From Sedimenticola sp. (lineage in GTDB: Bacteria; Pseudomonadota; Gammaproteobacteria; Chromatiales; Chromatiaceae), in assembly GCA_027041035.1 (NCBI GenBank), contig JALULB010000162.1, positions 1 to 10,947 on the forward strand: a DNA stretch of 10,947 bases, read 5' to 3'. Shown piece after piece: positions 1 to 10,663 of this stretch. The position numbers were made by a program, and so were the translations under genes. A model generated the notes under the pieces. It made no database searches. It saw nothing but the letters and a program-made list of their open reading frames with translations, and was not told the origin of the DNA. Numbering within the stretch: position 1 is the stretch's first letter; every line of letters starts with the position of its first letter.

Positions 1-56
1 ACACCGGCCACCTGAAGAGCGGCGCGCCGGCGCGCCGCTCTTCAGGTGGCCGGTGT
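1..56. repeat. 56-bp perfect palindrome at the window edge
   Basis: Bases 1-28 are the exact reverse complement of 29-56, with no loop. The inner 22 bp (about 18-39) form a natural GC-rich palindrome encoding the enolase residues SGAPARRS. The outer arms then mirror the eno coding sequence, and enolase homology breaks exactly there. This is what a fold-back read or an assembly error at a contig end gives; a true genomic inverted repeat would not be expected inside the end of eno. Confidence 0.9.
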
Positions 57-1215
57 CGAGGGCGACGGTGAGGTCGGCGATGAAGCTGTCGACGGTTTCG
101 CCGGAGCGATGCGAGACGAAGGCGCCCCAGCCGTGGTCGCGCGCCAGGCGCGTGGCGGTGATGGTCTCGGTGAGGGTGCCGATCTGATTGAGCTTGATCA
201 GCACGGCGTTGGCGACGTCTTCCTCGATGCCGCGCGCGATGATCTCGGGGTTGGTGCAGAACAGGTCGTCGCCGACCAGTTCGATGCGCGCGCCGAGCTG
301 CTGGTTGAGCAGCTTCCAGCCGTCCCAGTCGTCTTGCGCCATGCCATCTTCGAGCAACACCAGTGGGTATTTCTCGACCAGTTGCTGGTAGTAGGCGACC
401 ATCTCGGCGGAGTCCAGGCGTCGATCCTCGGTGCGCAGGTGGTATCGACCGTCTTCGTAGAATTCGCTGGAGGCGGGATCGCAGGCGATGCCGACATCCT
501 TGCCGGCTTGCAGTCCGGCGTTGCCGATCGCTTCGACGATCAGTTCGAAGGGTTCCTCGTTGGAGGCCATGCGCGGCGCGAAGCCGCCTTCGTCGCCGAC
601 GCCGACCGACAGGCCGCGTGCTTCCAGCAGGGTTTGCAGCGCGTGGTAGATCGTGCTGCCCCATTCCAGCGCCTGGGCGAAACTGTCGGCGCCGTAGGGC
701 GCGATCATGAATTCCTGGAAGTCGGCGCCTTGCCAATGGGCATGCACGCCGCCGTTGAGGATGTTCATGTGCGGTACCGGCAGGCGTGTCGAATCCGGCC
801 CGCCGAGATACTGGTAGAGATGCAGTCCACAGGCTCTGGCGGCGGCGCGGGCGATGGCCAGCGACACACCGAGGATGGCGTTCGCGCCGAGACGCGATTT
901 GTTCGGCGTGCCGTCCAAGGTGATCATCGCGCGGTCGATGTTCGCCTGCTGACGGGCGTCCAGGCCATGTACCGCCGGGGCGATCAGGTTGTTGACGTTG
1001 GCCACCGCCTGGGTAACGCCCTTGCCGCCGAAATGGCGTTCGTCGTCGTCACGCAGTTCGACGGCCTCGCGGCTGCCGGTGGAGGCGCCGGAGGGTACCG
1101 CCGCGCGGCCCCGCGTGCCGCCGGACAGTTGACATTCGACCTCGACGGTGGGGTTGCCGCGCGAATCGAGGATCTGGCGCGCGTGGATCTGGGTGATGCG
1201 AGATTGGGTTTCCAT
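1..1215 (-). CDS. eno: Enolase, 3'-truncated at the window edge
   Basis: Phosphopyruvate hydratase: interconverts 2-phosphoglycerate and PEP in the cytoplasm (glycolysis/gluconeogenesis). The start ATG at 1215 has GGAGAG about 5 nt upstream and gives METQSRITQIHARQILDSRG, the usual enolase N-terminus. Visible family landmarks are AAVPSGAS in the N-terminal domain, GDEGGFAP (catalytic acid E209), D246, E289 and D316 as the expected Mg2+ ligands, K341 in LIKLNQIGT, and SHRSGET at 368-374. The loop NGGVHAHWQGADFQEFMIAP differs from the Escherichia-type NGGEHADNNVDIQEFM, so this is a divergent enolase lineage. 405 codons are open to position 1, against about 425-430 for the family. The reading after SGAPARRS (from about position 34 leftward) lies in the palindrome and no longer resembles enolase (expected roughly ERVAKYN), so the last dozen codons shown are probably not genuine. 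It lies 149 bp downstream of ppsA on the same strand and may be cotranscribed with it. Confidence 0.95.
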   Translation of the reverse strand, partial: METQSRITQIHARQILDSRGNPTVEVECQLSGGTRGRAAVPSGASTGSREAVELRDDDERHFGGKGVTQAVANVNNLIAPAVHGLDARQQANIDRAMITLDGTPNKSRLGANAILGVSLAIARAAARACGLHLYQYLGGPDSTRLPVPHMNILNGGVHAHWQGADFQEFMIAPYGADSFAQALEWGSTIYHALQTLLEARGLSVGVGDEGGFAPRMASNEEPFELIVEAIGNAGLQAGKDVGIACDPASSEFYEDGRYHLRTEDRRLDSAEMVAYYQQLVEKYPLVLLEDGMAQDDWDGWKLLNQQLGARIELVGDDLFCTNPEIIARGIEEDVANAVLIKLNQIGTLTETITATRLARDHGWGAFVSHRSGETVDSFIADLTVALDTGHLKSGAPARRSSGGRC

Positions 1216-1364: not shown

Positions 1365-3782
<2,418 letters not shown>

Positions 3783-3879
3783 GATTGTTATCTCCTCGTG
3801 ATGGTTTCTAATCGAGTCGGCCGGAATCACGGGCCGTGGCCACTGGCATGATGGCAGAGACTCTACCGCCCGTTTCTAA

Positions 3880-4047
3880 AGTTGACCGTAACTACTCAGC
3901 TAACCGCTGAAATGCGCCAGCTCTGCGTTCAAAAATGGTCATTTACACGTGTAAACTCACATTTTTTGCCTTGATCTGACGCATTTCAGCGGCGATCTGA
4001 GCAGTTACCCATGTTTTAAACGACTCGCTGAGTAGTTACAGTTGACC
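3880..4047. mobile_element. MITE with GTAA ends and 8-bp target duplication (IS66-like)
   Basis: A 152-bp element (3888-4039) is bounded by 13-bp perfect terminal inverted repeats, GTAACTACTCAGC at 3888-3900 and its reverse complement at 4027-4039. It is flanked by exact 8-bp direct repeats AGTTGACC (3880-3887 and 4040-4047). GTAA ends and 8-bp duplications are characteristic of IS66-family transposition. A longer internal inverted repeat also exists: 3888-3920 pairs with 3976-4008 (16/17 in the inner block, 11/12 in the outer), centred on the palindrome TTTACACGTGTAAA at 3942-3955. The element would therefore form a long hairpin, and its right end is effectively doubled. It encodes no protein and needs a transposase from elsewhere. 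It lies about 100 bp upstream of the ppsA start codon. Confidence 0.85.
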
Positions 4048-4139
4048 TTAAGGTTTCATGGGAAATCGGTGTCCGTTGCCGATGCTTGGCTGCATGACGA
4101 CATTCATGTCAGCGCCCTCGAGCCGTAGCTGTTTTATGA

Positions 4140-4183
4140 AATATAGACTGTTTTAATACGGCACAATGTCATTTAGATGACGA
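4140..4183 (-). promoter_or_regulatory. Candidate ppsA promoter with CRP/FNR-type operator
   Basis: An imperfect dyad ATGTCA-N6-TGACGA (4166-4183) is followed, reading leftward, by 20 bp and the -10-like TATATT (4145-4140). The predicted start is near 4133 and the dyad centre falls at -41.5, the class II activator position. No good -35 is visible, as expected for an activator-dependent promoter. The transcript would cross the MITE before reaching ppsA, giving a leader of about 350 nt. Confidence 0.4.
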
Positions 4184-4229
4184 CTCTACAGGCAGCATCG
4201 GGCCAGCATCGCATAAAGATAGGGTACGA

Positions 4230-4243
4230 TTGATTCAGATCAA
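4230..4243. promoter_or_regulatory. FNR/ANR-like box TTGAT-N4-ATCAA
   Basis: TTGATTCAGATCAA matches the FNR/ANR consensus dyad at all ten specified bases. It overlaps the stop codon of the DUF3096 gene. It would be centred near -103.5 relative to the predicted ppsA start at 4133, which is in helical phase with known class I positions. It may be a chance match. Confidence 0.35.
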
Positions 4244-4381
4244 TGGAAGCAGACCCATGAGGCCGAAAAAGATCAGGTAGAAGGCGACGATATAGTTCAG
4301 CAGCTTCGGCCAGATCAGGATCGCGATCCCGGAAAGCAGCGAGACGAGGGGCGGACCGGCGAGCATCAGATCAAAATCCAT
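4235..4381 (-). CDS. DUF3096-type small membrane protein
   Basis: A 48-residue hydrophobic protein, MDFDLMLAGPPLVSLLSG at the start and LNYIVAFYLIFFGLMGL near the end. The pattern (L-S-L-x-x-G-I-x-I-L-I-x-P-x-L-L-N-Y-I-V-A-x-Y-L-I) is that of the DUF3096 family of short bacterial inner-membrane proteins, whose function is unknown. Two hydrophobic stretches (about residues 9-25 and 29-47) meet at the conserved WPKLLNY turn. The start at 4381 has GGAG about 8 nt upstream. The longer in-frame version from 4513 would add 44 residues of non-hydrophobic, low-complexity sequence and overrun the predicted promoter, so I reject it. Its own promoter with a CRP/FNR-type site appears just upstream. It faces away from the DedA gene. 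Confidence 0.8.
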   Translation of the reverse strand: MDFDLMLAGPPLVSLLSGIAILIWPKLLNYIVAFYLIFFGLMGLLPLI

Positions 4382-4417
4382 CGGGTTCTCCGTCAACGGT
4401 GTGGAAAGGTGGAAGGA

Positions 4418-4461
4418 ACTATAGATCGGAAAACCACATCCTGCTGTCACCCAGGTGGCAA
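4418..4461 (-). promoter_or_regulatory. Candidate promoter of the DUF3096 gene with CRP/FNR-type operator
   Basis: CTGTCA-N6-TGGCAA (4444-4461) lies 20 bp upstream of the -10-like TATAGT (4423-4418, read leftward). The predicted start is about 4411 and the dyad centre is at -41.5. The leader would be about 30 nt and contains the ribosome binding site. Spacing is identical to the candidate ppsA promoter. Confidence 0.45.
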
Positions 4462-4570
4462 GCCGGCGCGCCTGCGATATCCCCGGCGACCCGTTCCGGG
4501 GCGCTCGATCCATCCGGTTGAAGAGTAGCGCGTGCCGACGAGAGTTTCGAAGTCTGGCTGGCGGAGGCTA

Positions 4571-4576
4571 TATAAT
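4571..4576 (+). promoter_or_regulatory. Candidate -10 box upstream of the DedA-family gene
   Basis: A perfect TATAAT lies 72 bp before the DedA start codon. No convincing -35 is seen at 16-18 bp. The box sits between GCGGAGG (4561-4567) and CCTCCGC (4586-4592), an inverted repeat that could be an operator or simply a GC-rich coincidence. Confidence 0.35.
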
Positions 4577-4647
4577 GCGGCCTCTCCTCCGCGTGGCACG
4601 AGTGCCCGCGCAGGCCGGATTCCTCTTATCTTGCATGGTGACGGACG

Positions 4648-5265
4648 ATGTCGGCGCGACCCTTTTTCGATGCTCTCGATAGCCTGGCGATCGGCTCCTA
4701 TGGCGCCGCCGGTCTGGTGCTGCTGTTGATGCTGGAGTCGATGCCGGTGATCGGTCTGTTCATCCCGGGCGTGTTTCTGATGGTCGGGCTGGGTTCGTTG
4801 AGTGGTGGTGGTTACTTCGGTTTTGTCGATTGCGTGATCTTCTCCAGCATCGGCGCTTTGCTCGGTGACAGCATTGGCTACTGGCTGGGCTATCGGGGAG
4901 GCGAGCATCTGCTCGCGCGGTTCGCCAGCCGACGTACGCGGCGGAGTCGCGAGAAGGCGCTCGATTTCCTCGACCGGCATGGCCGTTGGGCAGTGTTCCT
5001 GGGTCGCTTCGTGTGGTTCTTCCACCCGGCCGTGCCGTTATTCGCCGGGGTCAGCGGCATGCGGCCGTGGCGTTTCTACCTCGCTGATGTGCCGGCGGTC
5101 GTTCTGTGGGTGGTCGTCTATGCCGGCATCGGCCATTGGGCTACCGGCGTCGCGCGCGAACGCACGTTGGAGTTCTTCACCGTGCTCGGCGTGGCGATCG
5201 GCGTGCTGCTGCTGGTTTGGCTGTTCCGTCACCTGCGCCGGCGGCGATCATCCACGTCGATGTAG
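4648..5265 (+). CDS. DedA/VTT-family inner-membrane protein
   Basis: A 205-residue polytopic protein of the DedA (VTT/SNARE-associated) family, members of which act in membrane homeostasis and polyprenyl-phosphate or phospholipid flipping. Seen: an N-terminal hydrophobic segment leading into LESMPVIGLFIPG (E30, P33), then GDSIGYWLGYRGGE (73-86), a basic loop (RFASRRTRRSREK, 91-103), HGRWAVFLGRF with R120, P127, LFAGVSGM, and two C-terminal membrane segments (about 147-163 and 176-194) ending in a basic tail. The length is typical. The usual second Arg of the re-entrant R-F-x-P-x-x-R pattern is absent (HPAVPLFAG here). The ribosome binding site is weak. The 3' end overlaps the convergent permease gene by 18 bp. 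The substrate cannot be assigned. Confidence 0.87.
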   Translation: MSARPFFDALDSLAIGSYGAAGLVLLLMLESMPVIGLFIPGVFLMVGLGSLSGGGYFGFVDCVIFSSIGALLGDSIGYWLGYRGGEHLLARFASRRTRRSREKALDFLDRHGRWAVFLGRFVWFFHPAVPLFAGVSGMRPWRFYLADVPAVVLWVVVYAGIGHWATGVARERTLEFFTVLGVAIGVLLLVWLFRHLRRRRSSTSM

Positions 5266-6552
5266 CAGTCCGCGCTGGCTGAACACCAGTTCGGCGAGGA
5301 TCACCGCGAGGTAACTCAAGCCGATCCACAGCAGGTTTCTCGCATCGTCCCGGTACAGGTAGCCGATCAACGCGCCCCACGAGGCCAAGGACAACAACAG
5401 CCCGATGAGCGCCCACGCGCCGCCGCCCCCGGTCTTCTTGCGCAAGCGCCATGCCGACAGGTTGATCAGCGCGAAGATCAGCAGAAAGGTCGAGCTGGCG
5501 AAGGACGAGATGATCGTCAGATTGGCGACATTCACGAATACCAGCGTCAGCACGGTGATGATCACCAGGCTGACCCATGGGATGTTGTTCTGCTTTCTAC
5601 GGAAGCCGAAGGCGCGGGGCAGGGCGCGCTCATGTGCCATGATCATGCCGAGCCGCGCGGTGCCGAACAGCGTTGCATTGATCGCCGAGGCGGTGGAGAA
5701 CAGCGCCGCCAGCCCGATCAACAGAAAACCGGCCTCGCCAAGAAAGGGTTTTGCCGCGACCGCCAGCGCGTACTCCTTGTACTTCTGAATCTCGTCCGGC
5801 AGCAGGTTGCCGACCGCCACCAGCGATACCAGGATATAGATCGCGATGGTCACCGCGATCGACCAGACGATACCGCGCTTCAGGTTGCGTTCCGGATTCT
5901 CCATGTCGTTGATCGCGTTCGGAATCAGCTCGAAGCCCTCGTAGGCGACGAAGATCAGCGCCGCGCCCATGATCACGCCGCCATAGCCAAGATTGAACAC
6001 CGGCAGCACATGGTCGGCCTTGATATAGAACAGACCGATGCCGGCGAACAGGAACAGGATGATGACCTTTACCGTGACGATCAGCAACTCGCTGCTGCCG
6101 CTGGCCTTTACGCCATACAGATTGATGCTGAGAAAGGTCAACAGGATGAGTGTCTCCAGCAGATGATGCATCGCCGGATTGTTGCCATCGTCGCCCAGCA
6201 TCGCGCTGCCGTAGACGCCGAAGGTGTAGGCGTACAACGCCATTGTGCCGATGTAGCCGACCAGCAGCAGCCAGCCGCCGATCGCGGCGACGTTCTGGTT
6301 GGCGAAGGCATGCTCCAGAAAGGTGAAGCTGCCGCCGCTGGACTGGTAGCGCATGCCGAGCCGCGCGTAGGACAGCCCGGTCAGCATCGCGATGATGCCG
6401 CCCAACGCGAAGGCGATCGGCGCGGCATGCCCGGCCTGGGCAATCGCCAGGCCGAGCACCGAGAATATGCCGCCGCCGACCATGCCGCCGATGCCCATCG
6501 CGATGACCTCTTTCAGGCTGAGGTTTTCGGCGCTGCCGGGTTTTTCGTCCAT
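5248..6552 (-). CDS. APC-superfamily amino acid permease
   Basis: A 434-residue integral membrane transporter with about 12 predicted membrane segments, fitting the amino acid-polyamine-organocation family (proton- or gradient-driven uptake or exchange). The first helix carries the unwound substrate-binding signature GIGGMVGGGIFSVLG (about 20-34), and the sixth region carries FVAYEGFELIPNAINDMENPERNLKR, a conserved APC motif. A loop with Glu-Arg-Ala-Leu-Pro follows TM8. A His-Arg-Arg-Gly tail ends the protein. The substrate is not deducible. The start at 6552 (MDEKPGSAENLSLKEV) fits the family, though its ribosome binding site (GGAA) is modest. It is divergent from the CRP/FNR-like regulator with a dyad operator between them, so regulation by that neighbour is plausible. 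It converges on the DedA gene. Confidence 0.92.
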   Translation of the reverse strand: MDEKPGSAENLSLKEVIAMGIGGMVGGGIFSVLGLAIAQAGHAAPIAFALGGIIAMLTGLSYARLGMRYQSSGGSFTFLEHAFANQNVAAIGGWLLLVGYIGTMALYAYTFGVYGSAMLGDDGNNPAMHHLLETLILLTFLSINLYGVKASGSSELLIVTVKVIILFLFAGIGLFYIKADHVLPVFNLGYGGVIMGAALIFVAYEGFELIPNAINDMENPERNLKRGIVWSIAVTIAIYILVSLVAVGNLLPDEIQKYKEYALAVAAKPFLGEAGFLLIGLAALFSTASAINATLFGTARLGMIMAHERALPRAFGFRRKQNNIPWVSLVIITVLTLVFVNVANLTIISSFASSTFLLIFALINLSAWRLRKKTGGGGAWALIGLLLSLASWGALIGYLYRDDARNLLWIGLSYLAVILAELVFSQRGLLHRRG

Positions 6553-6583
6553 GCGGATTCCGTCGGATGATGGTTGGGATTGC

Positions 6584-6592
6584 TGCTATGAT
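6584..6592 (+). promoter_or_regulatory. Candidate extended -10 promoter of the CRP/FNR-like gene
   Basis: TGC-TATGAT forms an extended -10 element on the plus strand, predicting a start near 6599 and a leader of about 130 nt. The operator dyad at 6615-6632 would then lie at about +17 to +34, a position suited to autorepression. No -35 was recognised. Confidence 0.3.
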
Positions 6593-6632
6593 AATCGACG
6601 ACAACCCGGAAATCCTGTCATCCGGGTGACAG
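6588..6632 (-). promoter_or_regulatory. Candidate permease promoter with perfect CTGTCA-N6-TGACAG operator
   Basis: CTGTCA-TCCGGG-TGACAG (6615-6632) is a perfect 6+6 dyad with the half-site spacing of CRP sites. Read leftward, 21 bp separate it from TATCAT (6593-6588, five of six to the -10 consensus). The predicted start is about 6581 and the dyad centre is at -42.5. The site lies in the divergent region next to the regulator gene. Confidence 0.5.
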
Positions 6633-6730
6633 CCTGGGGAAGCCTTTCATGCGAGACTGTACACCGATGTGGAAAAACGCTGACGACGAGGCATCGTGCC
6701 GGCATCCGGAATGCGCGCGGTGGTCATCCG

Positions 6731-7483
6731 ATGAAGCGTGATCCGGTGCGTTACCAGCGCTGCAAGGAGGTGCTGGCCAATTCGCCACTGTTCGGAGGGC
6801 TACCCGATGCCTTGCTCGACGATATGCTGTCGTTGTTCCGTTATGAAACCTGGCGGCGGCGTACGCAACTCGACCCCCGGCTGTTCCGCGAGCGCTTCTA
6901 TCTGCTGATCGATGGCCGTCTCGAAGTGATGCGTGTCAACCCCGACAGCGGCAAGAGCATCATGCTGGCGCTGCTCGGACCCGGCGACGGCATCGACATG
7001 GTGACCCTGCTGAACAGCCATCCGCACGAGGTCACGCCGGTCCCGCTGGACGATGCGGAACTGGTATCGGTGCCGCTGGACGCGGCGCGTCGCTGGATCG
7101 CCACGCATCCGGAGTTCAACCGTAACTTCCTGCCGTATCTGGCCGAACAGATGCGCAAGATGGAGGATCTGGCCACCGATCTGGCGTTGCACGACACCAT
7201 GACACGGCTGGCGAGGCTGATACTGCGGCATGTCGCGCCCGGGCACAAACAGGCGCGACAGGACGGTGGCCGGCATCTGCATCTGATCAACGACCTGCAC
7301 GACGAGGCACTCGCGCGCATGGTCGGATCGGTGCGGCAGGTCGTCAACCGACATCTGCAACACTGGCGTCGTTGCGGCGTGTTGCAACGGCGCGGATTCC
7401 ACACCGAGATCGCGGATCTGGAGGCGCTACGCGGTTACGCCGGCGAGGTCATGCAGGCAAAGCATGAAACCCGCTCGCCCTGA
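6731..7483 (+). CDS. CRP/FNR-family transcriptional regulator
   Basis: A 250-residue regulator. Residues about 16-120 fit the cyclic-nucleotide-binding-like beta-roll (RFYLLIDGRLEVMRVNPDSG, then LLGPGDGIDM), followed by the dimerisation helix (about 125-170) and a winged HTH (about 185-230). The turn and recognition helix read LARMVGSVRQVVNRHLQHW, aligning with the CRP IVGCSRETVGRIL: R202 and R207 match CRP Arg180 and Arg185, but Q203 replaces Glu181. The phosphate-binding cassette G-E-x(5)-R-(S/A) is absent, so cAMP is unlikely. There is only one N-terminal Cys (C11), so it is not an Fe-S FNR. The effector is unknown. The start at 6731 is chosen because homology begins near LANSPLFGGLP. The upstream in-frame stretch runs through the permease promoter and lacks similarity. 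It is divergent from the permease. Confidence 0.88.
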   Translation: MKRDPVRYQRCKEVLANSPLFGGLPDALLDDMLSLFRYETWRRRTQLDPRLFRERFYLLIDGRLEVMRVNPDSGKSIMLALLGPGDGIDMVTLLNSHPHEVTPVPLDDAELVSVPLDAARRWIATHPEFNRNFLPYLAEQMRKMEDLATDLALHDTMTRLARLILRHVAPGHKQARQDGGRHLHLINDLHDEALARMVGSVRQVVNRHLQHWRRCGVLQRRGFHTEIADLEALRGYAGEVMQAKHETRSP

Positions 7484-7629: not shown

Positions 7630-9024
7630 ATGAAAATCTCGTTTCACGGCGCCGACCAGGGCGTCACCGGTTCCTGCCATCTGATCGAATGCGCGGGCAG
7701 CAAGGTATTGATCGACTGCGGTATGTATCAAGGCGGGCGTGCATTGCGCGAAGAGAATGCCGCGCCCTTCGGCTTCGACCCGGAGGACATCGACTACCTG
7801 CTGCTGACCCACGCACATCTGGATCACTGCGGCCGCATCCCGTTGTTGGTGAAACGTGGCTTCAAGGGCGAGATCATCACCACCCCGGCCTCGGTGGAGT
7901 TGGCGCGCCTGGTGATGCTGGATTCCGCCGGCCTTCAAGAAGAAGAGGCCCGCTACCAGCAGCGCAAGGAACGCCGCCATCGCGGCAAGCACGTCGAGAC
8001 CGCCGAGCCTTTGTACACCACGCTGGATGCGCTCAACAGCCTGGAATTCCTCGGTCGCCGCGCCAGCTACGATCAACCGATCGATATCGCGCCGGGTATC
8101 CGCGCGACCTTCATCGACGCCGGGCATATCCTGGGTTCGGCGAGTATCCTGCTGGAATTGGAAGAGGATGGCCGCCGGCATCGCGTGCTGTTCTCCGGTG
8201 ATCTCGGTTCCGGCGGCCACCCGATCCTGCGTGATCCGACGCCTCCGCCGCATGCCGACACCGTGGTGATGGAAACCACCTATGGCGATCGGCTGCACAA
8301 GCAACTGAAGCCGTCGGTCGAGGAGCTGTACACGGTGGTCAACCAGACGATGGCGGGAGGCGGCAACATCGTCATCCCGACCTTCGCCCTGGAGCGCGCC
8401 CAGGAGATTCTGTTTTTCCTGCGCGAGGGCGTGGAATCGAAGCAGATTCAGCATTTCATCAACCTGTTTCTGGATTCGCCGATGGCTATCTCCGCGACCG
8501 AGATCTTCCGTCGCCATCCGGAATGCTTCGACCAGGAAACCCTGGAACTGCTGCGCGATGGCAATGACCCGTTCAAACTGCCGGGCCTGCATTTCACCCG
8601 CGAGACCGCCGAATCCATGGCCATCAACCAGATAGACAGCGGCGCGGTGATCATGGCCGGCTCCGGCATGTGTACCGGCGGACGGGTCACGCATCACCTG
8701 AAGCACAACCTGTGGCGCGACGAATGCAGCGTCGTCTTCGTCGGCTACGCGGCCAACGGCACCCTCGCGCGGCGTATCATCGACGGCGCCCGGAAAGTGC
8801 GCATCTTTGGCGAAGAGATCCCCGTCGCCGCCAGCATCCACACCATTGGCGGTTTCTCCGCGCATGCCGACCAGGCCGAGCTGCTGGCCTGGCACGACCA
8901 TGTCGACAAACCGCAAACCACCTACCTGGTGCATGGCGAACTCGACAGCATGACCGCCTTCGCCGGCAAATTGCGGGATACCCAGGTCGTCATGCCGCAG
9001 TTGGACCAGGTGTTCGAGCTCTAG
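7630..9024 (+). CDS. Metallo-beta-lactamase/beta-CASP RNase (CPSF73-like)
   Basis: A 464-residue zinc-dependent RNA hydrolase of the bacterial MBL-fold RNA metabolism group related to CPSF73/Ysh1 (COG1236 type). All expected motifs are visible: motif 2 THAHLDHCG (H61, H63, D65, H66), H166 in DAGHILGSAS, D191 in FSGDLGSGGHP, the beta-CASP insert beginning near METTYGDR (214-221), PTFALERAQEI, SGMCTGGR (345-351), motif B GGFSAHADQ (H412) and motif C VHGE (H435). The length matches the single-chain bacterial form and there is no KH domain. It probably acts as an endo- and/or 5'-exoribonuclease in the cytoplasm. GGAG lies about 10 nt before the ATG. A membrane protein gene follows after 3 bp, so the two form one operon. 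Confidence 0.94.
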   Translation: MKISFHGADQGVTGSCHLIECAGSKVLIDCGMYQGGRALREENAAPFGFDPEDIDYLLLTHAHLDHCGRIPLLVKRGFKGEIITTPASVELARLVMLDSAGLQEEEARYQQRKERRHRGKHVETAEPLYTTLDALNSLEFLGRRASYDQPIDIAPGIRATFIDAGHILGSASILLELEEDGRRHRVLFSGDLGSGGHPILRDPTPPPHADTVVMETTYGDRLHKQLKPSVEELYTVVNQTMAGGGNIVIPTFALERAQEILFFLREGVESKQIQHFINLFLDSPMAISATEIFRRHPECFDQETLELLRDGNDPFKLPGLHFTRETAESMAINQIDSGAVIMAGSGMCTGGRVTHHLKHNLWRDECSVVFVGYAANGTLARRIIDGARKVRIFGEEIPVAASIHTIGGFSAHADQAELLAWHDHVDKPQTTYLVHGELDSMTAFAGKLRDTQVVMPQLDQVFEL

Positions 9025-9680: not shown

Positions 9681-9794
9681 GTGCTTGGGCGTGGCGGTAA
9701 AGGTGAAGAAACTCATATTCGGCTGGCGGCCATGCTTGGCCATGGAACGGAACAGGCGCTCCAATTCATCCCCTTCGCTATCATTGCCCGCCGC
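9681..9794 (-). pseudogene. hsdR: HsdR (type I restriction) helicase fragment
   Basis: On the minus strand 38 codons encode GDELERLFRSMAKHGRQP followed by NMSFFTFTATPKH. The family pattern R-G-R-x-P-N-(L/M)-S-(F/Y)-F-A-F-T-A-T-P-K belongs to the SF2 helicase motor of type I HsdR subunits (motif III region). After Pro-Lys-His the expected K-T-L-E-x-F-G is replaced by VVFIFPN and a TGA at 9657-9659, so homology ends at a deletion junction. On the other side it abuts the outermost REP palindrome (9797). HsdR is normally about 800-1100 residues, so this is an internal remnant without start or end. Its strand matches the HsdM-like gene 900 bp away. Confidence 0.8.
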
Positions 9795-9796
9795 TT

Positions 9797-9872
9797 GTCG
9801 GGTTACGCTACGCTAACCCGACCTACCTGTTCTTCATCTGCCGTAGGTCGGGTTAGCGCAGCGTAACCCGAC
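9797..9872. repeat. REP pair 1-2 (BIME-like, head-to-head)
   Basis: REP1 (9797-9826) is GTCGGGTTACGC, a 3-nt loop, GCTAACCCGAC, then the tail CTAC. REP2 (9843-9872) is its inverted copy starting GTAGGTCGGGTTAGC. Both are hairpin-forming and a 16-bp spacer separates them. Paired opposite REPs are the arrangement mobilised by RAYT proteins. Confidence 0.85.
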
Positions 9873-9874
9873 AT

Positions 9875-9900
9875 CCCCGCTCAAATTGGCGATAGCGGGG
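9875..9900. repeat. Short hairpin between REP units
   Basis: CCCCGCT (9875-9881) and AGCGGGG (9894-9900) form a 7-bp stem with a 12-nt loop. A second small dyad, AAAGAG/CTCTTT at 9901-9918, follows. No T-run is seen and no role can be assigned. Confidence 0.4.
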
Positions 9901-9933
9901 AAAGAGCAGAGTCTCTTTCGGACCGCTGCGTCG

Positions 9934-9970
9934 GGTTTTTCGTACGGTTCATTCATGTCCGATGCCTTCG
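9934..9970 (-). pseudogene. Duplicated RAYT 3' end
   Basis: This stretch resembles 10070-10106, the last codons and 3' flank of the RAYT gene. On the minus strand it encodes the same terminal EGIGHE and stop, followed by a similar flank, with scattered mismatches. The rest of the second RAYT copy is missing; REP3 lies next to it. Confidence 0.6.
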
Positions 9971-9976
9971 GGCCGC

Positions 9977-10006
9977 GTAAGTCGGGTTAGCGTAGCGTAA
10001 CCCGAC
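9977..10006. repeat. REP3
   Basis: GTAAGTCGGGTTAGC, GTA, GCGTAACCCGAC: same orientation as REP2, with a one-base change in the GTAG tail (GTAA). It lies upstream of the duplicated RAYT tail when read on the minus strand. Confidence 0.8.
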
Positions 10007-10034
10007 ATCTCCATCGGTCTGCCTGCTCCTCTGC

Positions 10035-10068
10035 GTCGGGTTACGCCCTGCGGGCTAACCCGACCTAC
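10035..10068. repeat. REP4, variant with enlarged loop stem
   Basis: GTCGGGTTAC-GCCC-TGC-GGGC-TAACCCGAC followed by CTAC. The orientation is that of REP1 but the centre is a stronger GCCC/GGGC stem. It ends 17 bp from the RAYT stop codon and marks that side of the module. Confidence 0.85.
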
Positions 10069-10084
10069 GGGGTTTTCGTGCGCT

Positions 10085-10621
10085 TTACTCATGGCCGATG
10101 CCTTCGAAATCCATGGTGGTCGCGCCCCAATCGCCGGGGTATATCCCGGCGCGGACGTGGCGATGGAAACTGCTGTGCCGCCACTCCTTCGGCGCATTGA
10201 CGTAACCGTGTTTTACCGGATTGTAATGGATGTATTCGACGTGCCTGGTGAAGTCGGTTTCGTCACGCAGGAGGTGTTCCCAAAATCGATTCTGCCAGAT
10301 CGCCTGCTGTTTTTTGTTTTGGCGACTTCGATTTGGAGGCGCGCGTAGATCCGAAGGACTGTGTTTGCTGAACCAGGTCTTGATGAGACGCCAGCGGGTG
10401 GAGAAGTCGGCATCCTCCGGCGGCAGGGTCCAGATGCAATGGATGTGGTCCGGCAAGATGACGATGGCTTCGATGCCGAAGGGACGTTTTTCCTTCACGG
10501 TGCGGAATGCCTGGCGCAGGAGGTCGATATTGGCTTCATTGTCGAACAGGGGGCGACGTTGCTCGGTGACCACTGTGAAGAAATAGGCGGCTCCGGGGAT
10601 GAATGCGCGTCGGTATTGCAT
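10085..10621 (-). CDS. REP-associated tyrosine transposase (RAYT)
   Basis: A 178-residue single-strand DNA endonuclease of the Y1 HUH (IS200/IS605-like TnpA-REP) family that cuts and joins REP hairpins. Seen: an N-terminal RRAFIPGAAYFFTVVTEQRR, typical of RAYTs, the HUH motif in LPDHIHCIW (H59, H61), and the C-terminal YIHYNPVKHGYV, with the likely catalytic Tyr at Y130 or Y133, inside the family's YIHxNPV signature. The length is complete for the family. The start at 10621 follows AAGGA about 8 nt upstream. The stop lies 17 bp from REP4, and REP5 begins 13 bp before the start codon, so the gene sits between opposed REPs as expected for a RAYT locus. It is inserted among type I restriction remnants. 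No frameshift is visible; it appears intact. Confidence 0.93.
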   Translation of the reverse strand: MQYRRAFIPGAAYFFTVVTEQRRPLFDNEANIDLLRQAFRTVKEKRPFGIEAIVILPDHIHCIWTLPPEDADFSTRWRLIKTWFSKHSPSDLRAPPNRSRQNKKQQAIWQNRFWEHLLRDETDFTRHVEYIHYNPVKHGYVNAPKEWRHSSFHRHVRAGIYPGDWGATTMDFEGIGHE

Positions 10622-10633
10622 GGTGGTTTCCTT

Positions 10634-10663
10634 GTCGGGTTACGCTGCGCTAACCCGACCTAC
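10634..10663. repeat. REP5
   Basis: GTCGGGTTACGC, TGC-centred loop, GCTAACCCGAC then CTAC: same orientation as REP1 and REP4. It lies just upstream of the RAYT start and borders the truncated open frame following the HsdM-like gene. Confidence 0.85.

Follow-up and report, generated by a model that had tools for sequence, protein, structure and literature searches.

The subject of this analysis is contig JALULB010000162.1 of a Sedimenticola sp. assembly (GCA_027041035.1), which was analyzed over its whole length of 10,947 nucleotides and is called the window below. Three inverted repeats (dyads) lie upstream of its ppsA, DUF3096 and APC permease genes, and a gene for a CRP/FNR-family protein, P0001, stands next to one of them. 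These dyads probably belong to a class II CRP/FNR regulon that is conserved, seems not to have been described before, is read by the neighboring protein and serves energy-limited survival. The dyads are predicted binding sites of P0001 and its orthologs, with the operator cTGTCAy-N4-rTGACAg, and the regulator would activate, from a center at -41.5, promoters that have a -10 hexamer and no good -35 hexamer. Recurring putative targets lie at the pyruvate/acetate/phosphoenolpyruvate (PEP) node (pdh, pta, ackA and ppsA), and further candidates are stress proteins (Usp, HdeD-like, YfdX, CbpA and YflT-like), a P-type ATPase and permeases; such a program may serve survival under shortage of energy or oxygen. 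The basis is computational: the motif stands at a fixed distance from the -10 and occurs together with the regulator gene, one of the sites shows a footprint, the recognition helix does not vary, and the same targets recur. From these we infer that the neighboring protein is the reader and acts as an activator.

Ten named relatives, all of them metagenome-assembled, encode an ortholog of P0001 with 66-72% identity. A perfect TGTCA-N6-TGACA core was found no more than 250 bp from the regulator gene at 7 of the 10 loci (L048, L049, L052, L053, L055, L056 and L057), and 9 of the 10 have a site when one mismatch is allowed, L050 and L051 joining the set; at L054 none was present within this distance even with one mismatch. 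The inner edges of these sites are mostly a pyrimidine and a purine, giving the consensus TGTCAY-N4-RTGACA, and the sites flank the regulator in differing gene contexts. The consensus was drawn from the relatives' regulator loci together with the best site of the window, and so depends partly on that perfect site and is independent of the other two. With at most one mismatch it matches the window three times against 0.07 expected, a number reached by none of 200 shuffles; with at most two mismatches the same three matches compare with 1.04 expected, and 19 of 200 shuffles reach them.

A motif scan of the host genome, which an earlier sequence-only reading of the window had proposed as a check, gave 8 perfect consensus sites and none for the reversed pattern used as control. 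All 8 lie outside called genes, each upstream of at least one gene. Eleven regulator-bearing genomes, this one included, hold 30 perfect sites against 5 for the control, the genome of L054 having none, and two further regulator-bearing genomes hold 5 against 0. Of 92 relatives, 9 have a P0001-like protein (E <=1e-20) and together carry 31 perfect sites against 2 for the control; the 83 that lack one have 52 against 24. The totals of 30 and 31 both include G000, those for the 92 relatives were summed by hand, and gene calling was retrained for each genome, lower-GC genomes among them. A close ortholog of the regulator (E <=1e-85) is rare, occurring in only 4 of 369 genomes drawn from the class, this one included; one ortholog is in a single-contig genome of 2,916,906 bp. 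The comparative site counts and the sites at the regulator loci thus bear out the proposal that the adjacent CRP/FNR protein is the likely reader.

The strongest regularity concerns the distance to the -10. When the 57 perfect sites were read in both directions, TANNNT stood exactly 20 bp past the 18-bp dyad in 33 of 114 cases, compared with a mean of 1.48 and a maximum of 6 at the other gaps. This test covered all but one (in G032) of the 58 perfect sites known from genomes with the regulator and included the perfect site of the window, which with its gap of 21 scores nothing at 20. For 44 of the 52 sites in genomes lacking the regulator, TANNNT was at gap 20 in only 2 of 88 directions (other gaps: mean 1.24, maximum 4). 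Counted by site the comparison is 28/57 versus 2/44, with a Fisher p of 5e-7 that is nominal only since the sites are related. A hand-oriented set of 68 entries, four of them from the window and some of them single-mismatch sites, gave 32 at gap 20, where the remaining 79 gaps average 0.89; when the window entries are left out the count is 30 of 64. The sites of regulator genomes also carry a flanking C more often (62%, versus 30% in regulator-less genomes). A gap of 20 places the dyad center at -41.5 relative to the predicted start sites, where class II CRP-dependent promoters have their operator ahead of the -10. Since the peak is present in regulator genomes and absent in the controls, class II spacing is a real, selected feature, and class II activation at the dyad promoters presumably goes with it. 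The geometry claimed for the three dyads of the window is supported in the same way; their sequences and coordinates, and the gaps of 20, 20 and 21 bp to TATATT, TATAGT and TATCAT on the minus strand, were confirmed on the letters of the window (Table 1).

P0001 matches PF00027 (35.7 bits) and PF13545 (42.9 bits), both over the cut-off, which places it in the CRP/FNR superfamily; 484 homologs were found, 120 being listed at identities of at least 63%. Its recognition helix reads GSVRQVVNRHL, and in 38 aligned homologs R202, Q203, N206, R207 and most of the remaining helix are invariant, as are H99 and a single N-terminal cysteine, C11. Solved CRP-type relatives read GASRETVNK here, so that a Glu is changed to Gln at a position which contacts bases in CRP, where passages of PMC12531629 describe contacts by Arg180, Glu181 and Arg185. 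We infer that Gln203 in place of Glu181 would favor TGTCA over TGTGA. Among the nine relatives with a P0001-like protein, the six with an RQVVN(R/K) helix hold 30 sites, and those with the altered helices RVVVNR, RPVVAR and RQVVNQ have 0, 0 and 1 site in their genomes, a correlation and not a proof. At the loci tested near altered-helix regulators (G046 and G014), no TGTxA-N6 palindrome that could serve as a substitute operator was seen, and there was one single-mismatch match only.

P0001 is not CRP proper by equivalog, its score with the NCBIfam CRP model being 29.8 bits against a cut-off of 266. The pocket residues of CRP with a role in cAMP recognition are a Glu and an Arg-Thr/Ser pair, and the aligned Glu and Arg-Ser/Thr residues are replaced in P0001; because of this its effector is probably not cAMP. 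FNR and Anr are defined by an N-terminal cysteine cluster holding an Fe-S center, which the single invariant cysteine of the 38 homologs does not provide. By the features tested, then, P0001 is neither CRP proper nor FNR. An AlphaFold2 model had a mean predicted local distance difference test (pLDDT) score of 65, and the greater part of its DNA-binding domain scored below 50.

Outside the window, the perfect sites of this genome lie upstream of pyruvate dehydrogenase E1 (contig C217), of YfdX, followed by a phosphate acetyl/butyryltransferase (C275:387), of a presumably TonB-receptor-like gene and a P-type-ATPase-like run (C275:7106), of a DUF308 protein, which we take to be HdeD-like, and a CitMHS transporter (two sites in C83), and of a SpoIIAA/Usp protein (two sites in C159); the site of C162 is that between the APC permease and the regulator. 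The assembly of 2.26 Mb comprises 404 contigs, of which the window is one, and is 63% complete, so this list is incomplete. Targets repeated in different genera are pdhA, usp, the HdeD-like gene, yfdX and the ATPase. The center of the pdhA site is 84.5, 75.5 and 75.5 bp ahead of the start in G000, G001 and G031; HdeD-like genes have sites in these same three genomes and YfdX-like genes in G000, G051, G056, G146 and G270 (the Pfam test covering just G000 and G146). YflT-like genes follow the regulator in several genomes, at 21.1 bits and thus below the cut-off of 26.2, cbpA adjoins it in G092, G100 and G146, and acetate kinase has a site in G100. In G031, a stretch of contig 9 (34-70 kb; L106 and L107) carries two P0001-like regulators and seven perfect sites within 32 kb. 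Its genes include phosphoketolase, a glycogen-phosphorylase-type enzyme, TauE and a P-type ATPase, all with Pfam support, and what we take to be pdh, phosphoglycerate mutase, ppsA, usp, an HdeD-like gene, pta, acetate kinase and transaldolase. For the closest copy of ppsA itself, upstream DNA could be read in 10 relatives. In 6 of them a site with at most one mismatch heads either that copy or a run of genes on its strand that includes it; the sites are perfect in G031 and G146 and have one mismatch in G097, G051, G032 and, through DUF3096, G001. The second ppsA copy of G093 has a perfect site. The suggestion of a small regulon linking PEP synthesis, amino acid uptake and a small membrane protein is therefore supported as regards a shared regulon and needs correction as regards its size: the predicted regulon is far wider than three genes, with pdh, pta, ackA, usp, HdeD-like genes, yfdX, the P-type ATPase and cbpA among its members.

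Ahead of the Usp gene two sites stand in tandem, 35-41 bp apart, in G000, G001 and G002, and there are single sites in G031. Tandem dyads with this distance between centers precede HdeD-like and Usp genes (L019:853-908, L020:3344-3400, L099 and L102), the proximal dyad being at -41.5 and the distal one near -80, perhaps a class III arrangement.

Conservation of the window's own dyads at orthologous promoters was mixed. In the DUF3096-DedA gap of G001, a genome of the same genus, an identical 18-nucleotide run, GCTGTCACCCAGGTGGCA, is preserved in diverged flanks, whereas 1000 shuffles reach 12 at most. DUF3096 lies about 120 bp from ppsA in G001, so one promoter could serve both genes there; in the window the two are separated by about 330 bp more, and dyad 4166 is in this extra stretch. 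A comparable site is found between DUF3096 and a ppsA run in G051 (L169:4183), and it leaves both possibilities for dyad 4166: the site may have been gained in this genome or lost in G001. In G146 the APC gene is the last of the run behind a perfect site.

A number of results weigh against the proposed regulon. The motif as the sequence-only reading had written it, CTGTCA-N6-TGACAG with up to three mismatches, is at chance level in the window (3 matches, 3.64 expected); it therefore proves nothing by itself and was rejected as evidence, and the three dyads share a motif in the form of the relatives' consensus. Perfect sites are twice as many as the reversed control in genomes that lack the regulator, too, and 7 of the 57 perfect sites in regulator-bearing genomes fall inside called genes. 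This genome has 12 single-mismatch sites, two of them in the window, where about 14 are expected by chance (0.07 per window, scaled up), and 7 of the 9 examined among the 10 outside the window are inside genes; single-mismatch sites were thus rejected as a means of finding the regulon. The case for the two weaker dyads of the window is consequently made by how densely they lie there, by their position and spacing and, for one of the two, by its conservation in a single congener. With one mismatch allowed there are 20 sites and 1 match of the reversed pattern; this control is too favorable, since its count falls short of the roughly 14 that shuffles predict, and for this reason the analysis relied on the shuffles themselves, on genomes lacking the regulator and on the test of the -10 distance. 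DUF3096 was found in four relatives (G001, G051, G056 and G094), and only G001 keeps the site at that place. The ppsA and APC dyads have no counterpart at the same genes in G001, and the APC orthologs of G001 and G094, the latter (L050) a close ortholog adjoining the regulator, have no site within two mismatches. No ppsA-linked site was present in G101, G056 or G270, nor adjoining the closest copy of G093, where the only site precedes an APC gene 3 kb upstream. Finally, no -10-like hexamer stands at the right gap on the regulator-facing side of dyad 6615.

It is very improbable that the three dyads are accidental look-alikes selected by eye. Such an explanation would account for the chance-level counts of the written motif and of single-mismatch sites genome-wide; it is at odds with the three matches against 0.07 expected, the exact phasing to the -10 and the DUF3096 footprint, and is most plausible for dyad 4166 alone. 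A regulon that is real and read by another CRP/FNR paralog, the gene beside dyad 6615 being a target or a bystander, is unlikely: a first look gave 10 proteins of this genome as candidate P0001 relatives, and neighboring genes are often just co-regulated, but site counts vary with whether a genome has P0001-like genes and with the form of the recognition helix they encode, and sites flank the regulator in differing gene contexts. CRP/FNR proteins are able to repress as well, and the protein could block RNA polymerase at -41.5 instead of helping it. We regard repression as distinctly improbable, as no conventional two-hexamer (-35/-10) sigma-70 promoter was found in 3780-6740 (0 versus 1.1 expected) and class II activation requires just such an exact 20-bp phasing to the -10.

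Both CRP/FNR proteins and class II promoters are well known. With E. coli CRP and actinobacterial CRP/GlxR-type proteins, P0001 has in common the domain order, the N6-spacer dyad, the Arg180 and Arg185 positions and class II spacing; it differs from CRP in Gln for Glu181, TGTCA for TGTGA and the replaced cAMP-pocket residues. Anr/FixK2-type regulators use TTGAT/TTGA-type boxes; the present system has another subfamily and another DNA code. The CO-responsive heme activator CooA has the half-site TGTC(A/G) with the same N6 spacing (TGTCGGCNNGCCGACA, in passages of PMC545781). It turned up in the profile search with only distant sequence similarity to P0001, the comparison covering half-site and sequence; no coo operon was among the targets looked at, although no search was aimed at coo genes. 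The targets overlap the gene content of Anr/FixK2-type low-oxygen programs: portions of PMC5705914 report ackA-pta, uspK and anr as needed under oxygen limitation, and portions of PMC6515984 report Usp, DnaJ, PEP synthase and phosphoketolase as induced in microoxia. The Burkholderia lxa locus, mentioned in PMC3759415, is a candidate for the same group, and a DUF3096 gene is lowered by ppGpp in growth arrest according to PMC13343836. Given this resemblance, the regulon seems to work like low-oxygen or energy-limitation programs.

Going further, we tentatively propose, at somewhat less than even confidence, that a distinct gammaproteobacterial CRP/FNR subfamily may respond to a non-cAMP signal (redox via Cys11, or a ligand near His99) and run an energy-limitation program of pyruvate/acetate/PEP enzymes with Usp, HdeD-like, YfdX, YflT-like and DUF3096 proteins. 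It would correspond to Anr/FixK2 but read a DNA code of its own, for which a single Glu-to-Gln change would be mainly responsible; for several carriers, hydrothermal-vent metagenomes are the only source. The literature searched, which omits most subscription papers, gave no account of either the motif or the regulon. The regulon would provide predictions of regulator, operator and promoter layout for the poorly understood HdeD-like, YfdX, YflT-like, DUF3096 and Usp proteins in a group of mostly uncultured gammaproteobacteria, and would tie poorly understood stress proteins to the pyruvate/acetate/PEP node. The natural helix variants (RQVVNR, RVVVNR, RPVVAR and RQVVNQ) offer a way to probe a change in CRP-family DNA specificity.

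Table 1. Features of the window (names marked a are presumed from the sequence itself)
Feature	Position	Strand	Remark
eno (a)	1-1215	-	cut by contig end
ppsA, phosphoenolpyruvate synthase	1365-3782	-	proposed target
High-copy palindromic (MITE-like) element, 153 bp, ends GTAACTACTCAGC/GCTGAGTAGTTAC	3888-4040		within ppsA leader, between dyad 4166 and gene; no part of the regulon
-10-like hexamer TATATT	4140-4145	-	toward ppsA, 20 bp from dyad 4166; putative role
Dyad ATGTCATTTAGATGACGA	4166-4183		upstream of ppsA; one mismatch to TGTCAY-N4-RTGACA
DUF3096 protein, 48 aa	4235-4381	-	proposed target
-10-like hexamer TATAGT	4418-4423	-	toward DUF3096, 20 bp from dyad 4444; putative role
Dyad CTGTCACCCAGGTGGCAA	4444-4461		upstream of DUF3096; one mismatch to TGTCAY-N4-RTGACA
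DedA (a)	4648-5265	+	
APC-family amino acid permease	5248-6552	-	proposed target
-10-like hexamer TATCAT	6588-6593	-	toward APC gene, 21 bp from dyad 6615; putative role
Perfect dyad CTGTCATCCGGGTGACAG	6615-6632		between divergent APC permease and CRP/FNR genes; one of the 8 perfect sites of the assembly
CRP/FNR-family regulator (P0001), 250 aa	6731-7483	+	cNMP-binding and HTH_Crp_2 domains; proposed reader of the dyads
beta-CASP metallo-hydrolase	7630-9024	+	
Protein without family match, 194 aa	9028-9612	+	putative membrane protein; begins 3 bp after beta-CASP gene
Small REP-associated-transposase-like open reading frame (a)	10085-10621	-	

The element resembling a miniature inverted-repeat transposable element (MITE) separates the proposed ppsA promoter from ppsA. 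It matches 79 times in this genome, 49 times in G001 and 66 times in G002, the copies being fewer as both strands can match, and not at all in G031 and G051. The best NCBIfam model for the beta-CASP protein, type VII CRISPR Cas14, scored 396 bits against a cut-off of 800, so this name is not to be trusted; the 194-residue protein behind it had no Pfam or NCBIfam match, and an Rfam search of the window gave none. A perfect palindrome at the extreme contig end (1-56, within eno) resembles an assembly fold-back. Several GTCGGGTTACGC-type repeats surround the transposase-like gene over 9780-10660, and together they are presumably a repetitive extragenic palindrome (REP) and REP-associated tyrosine transposase (RAYT) system.

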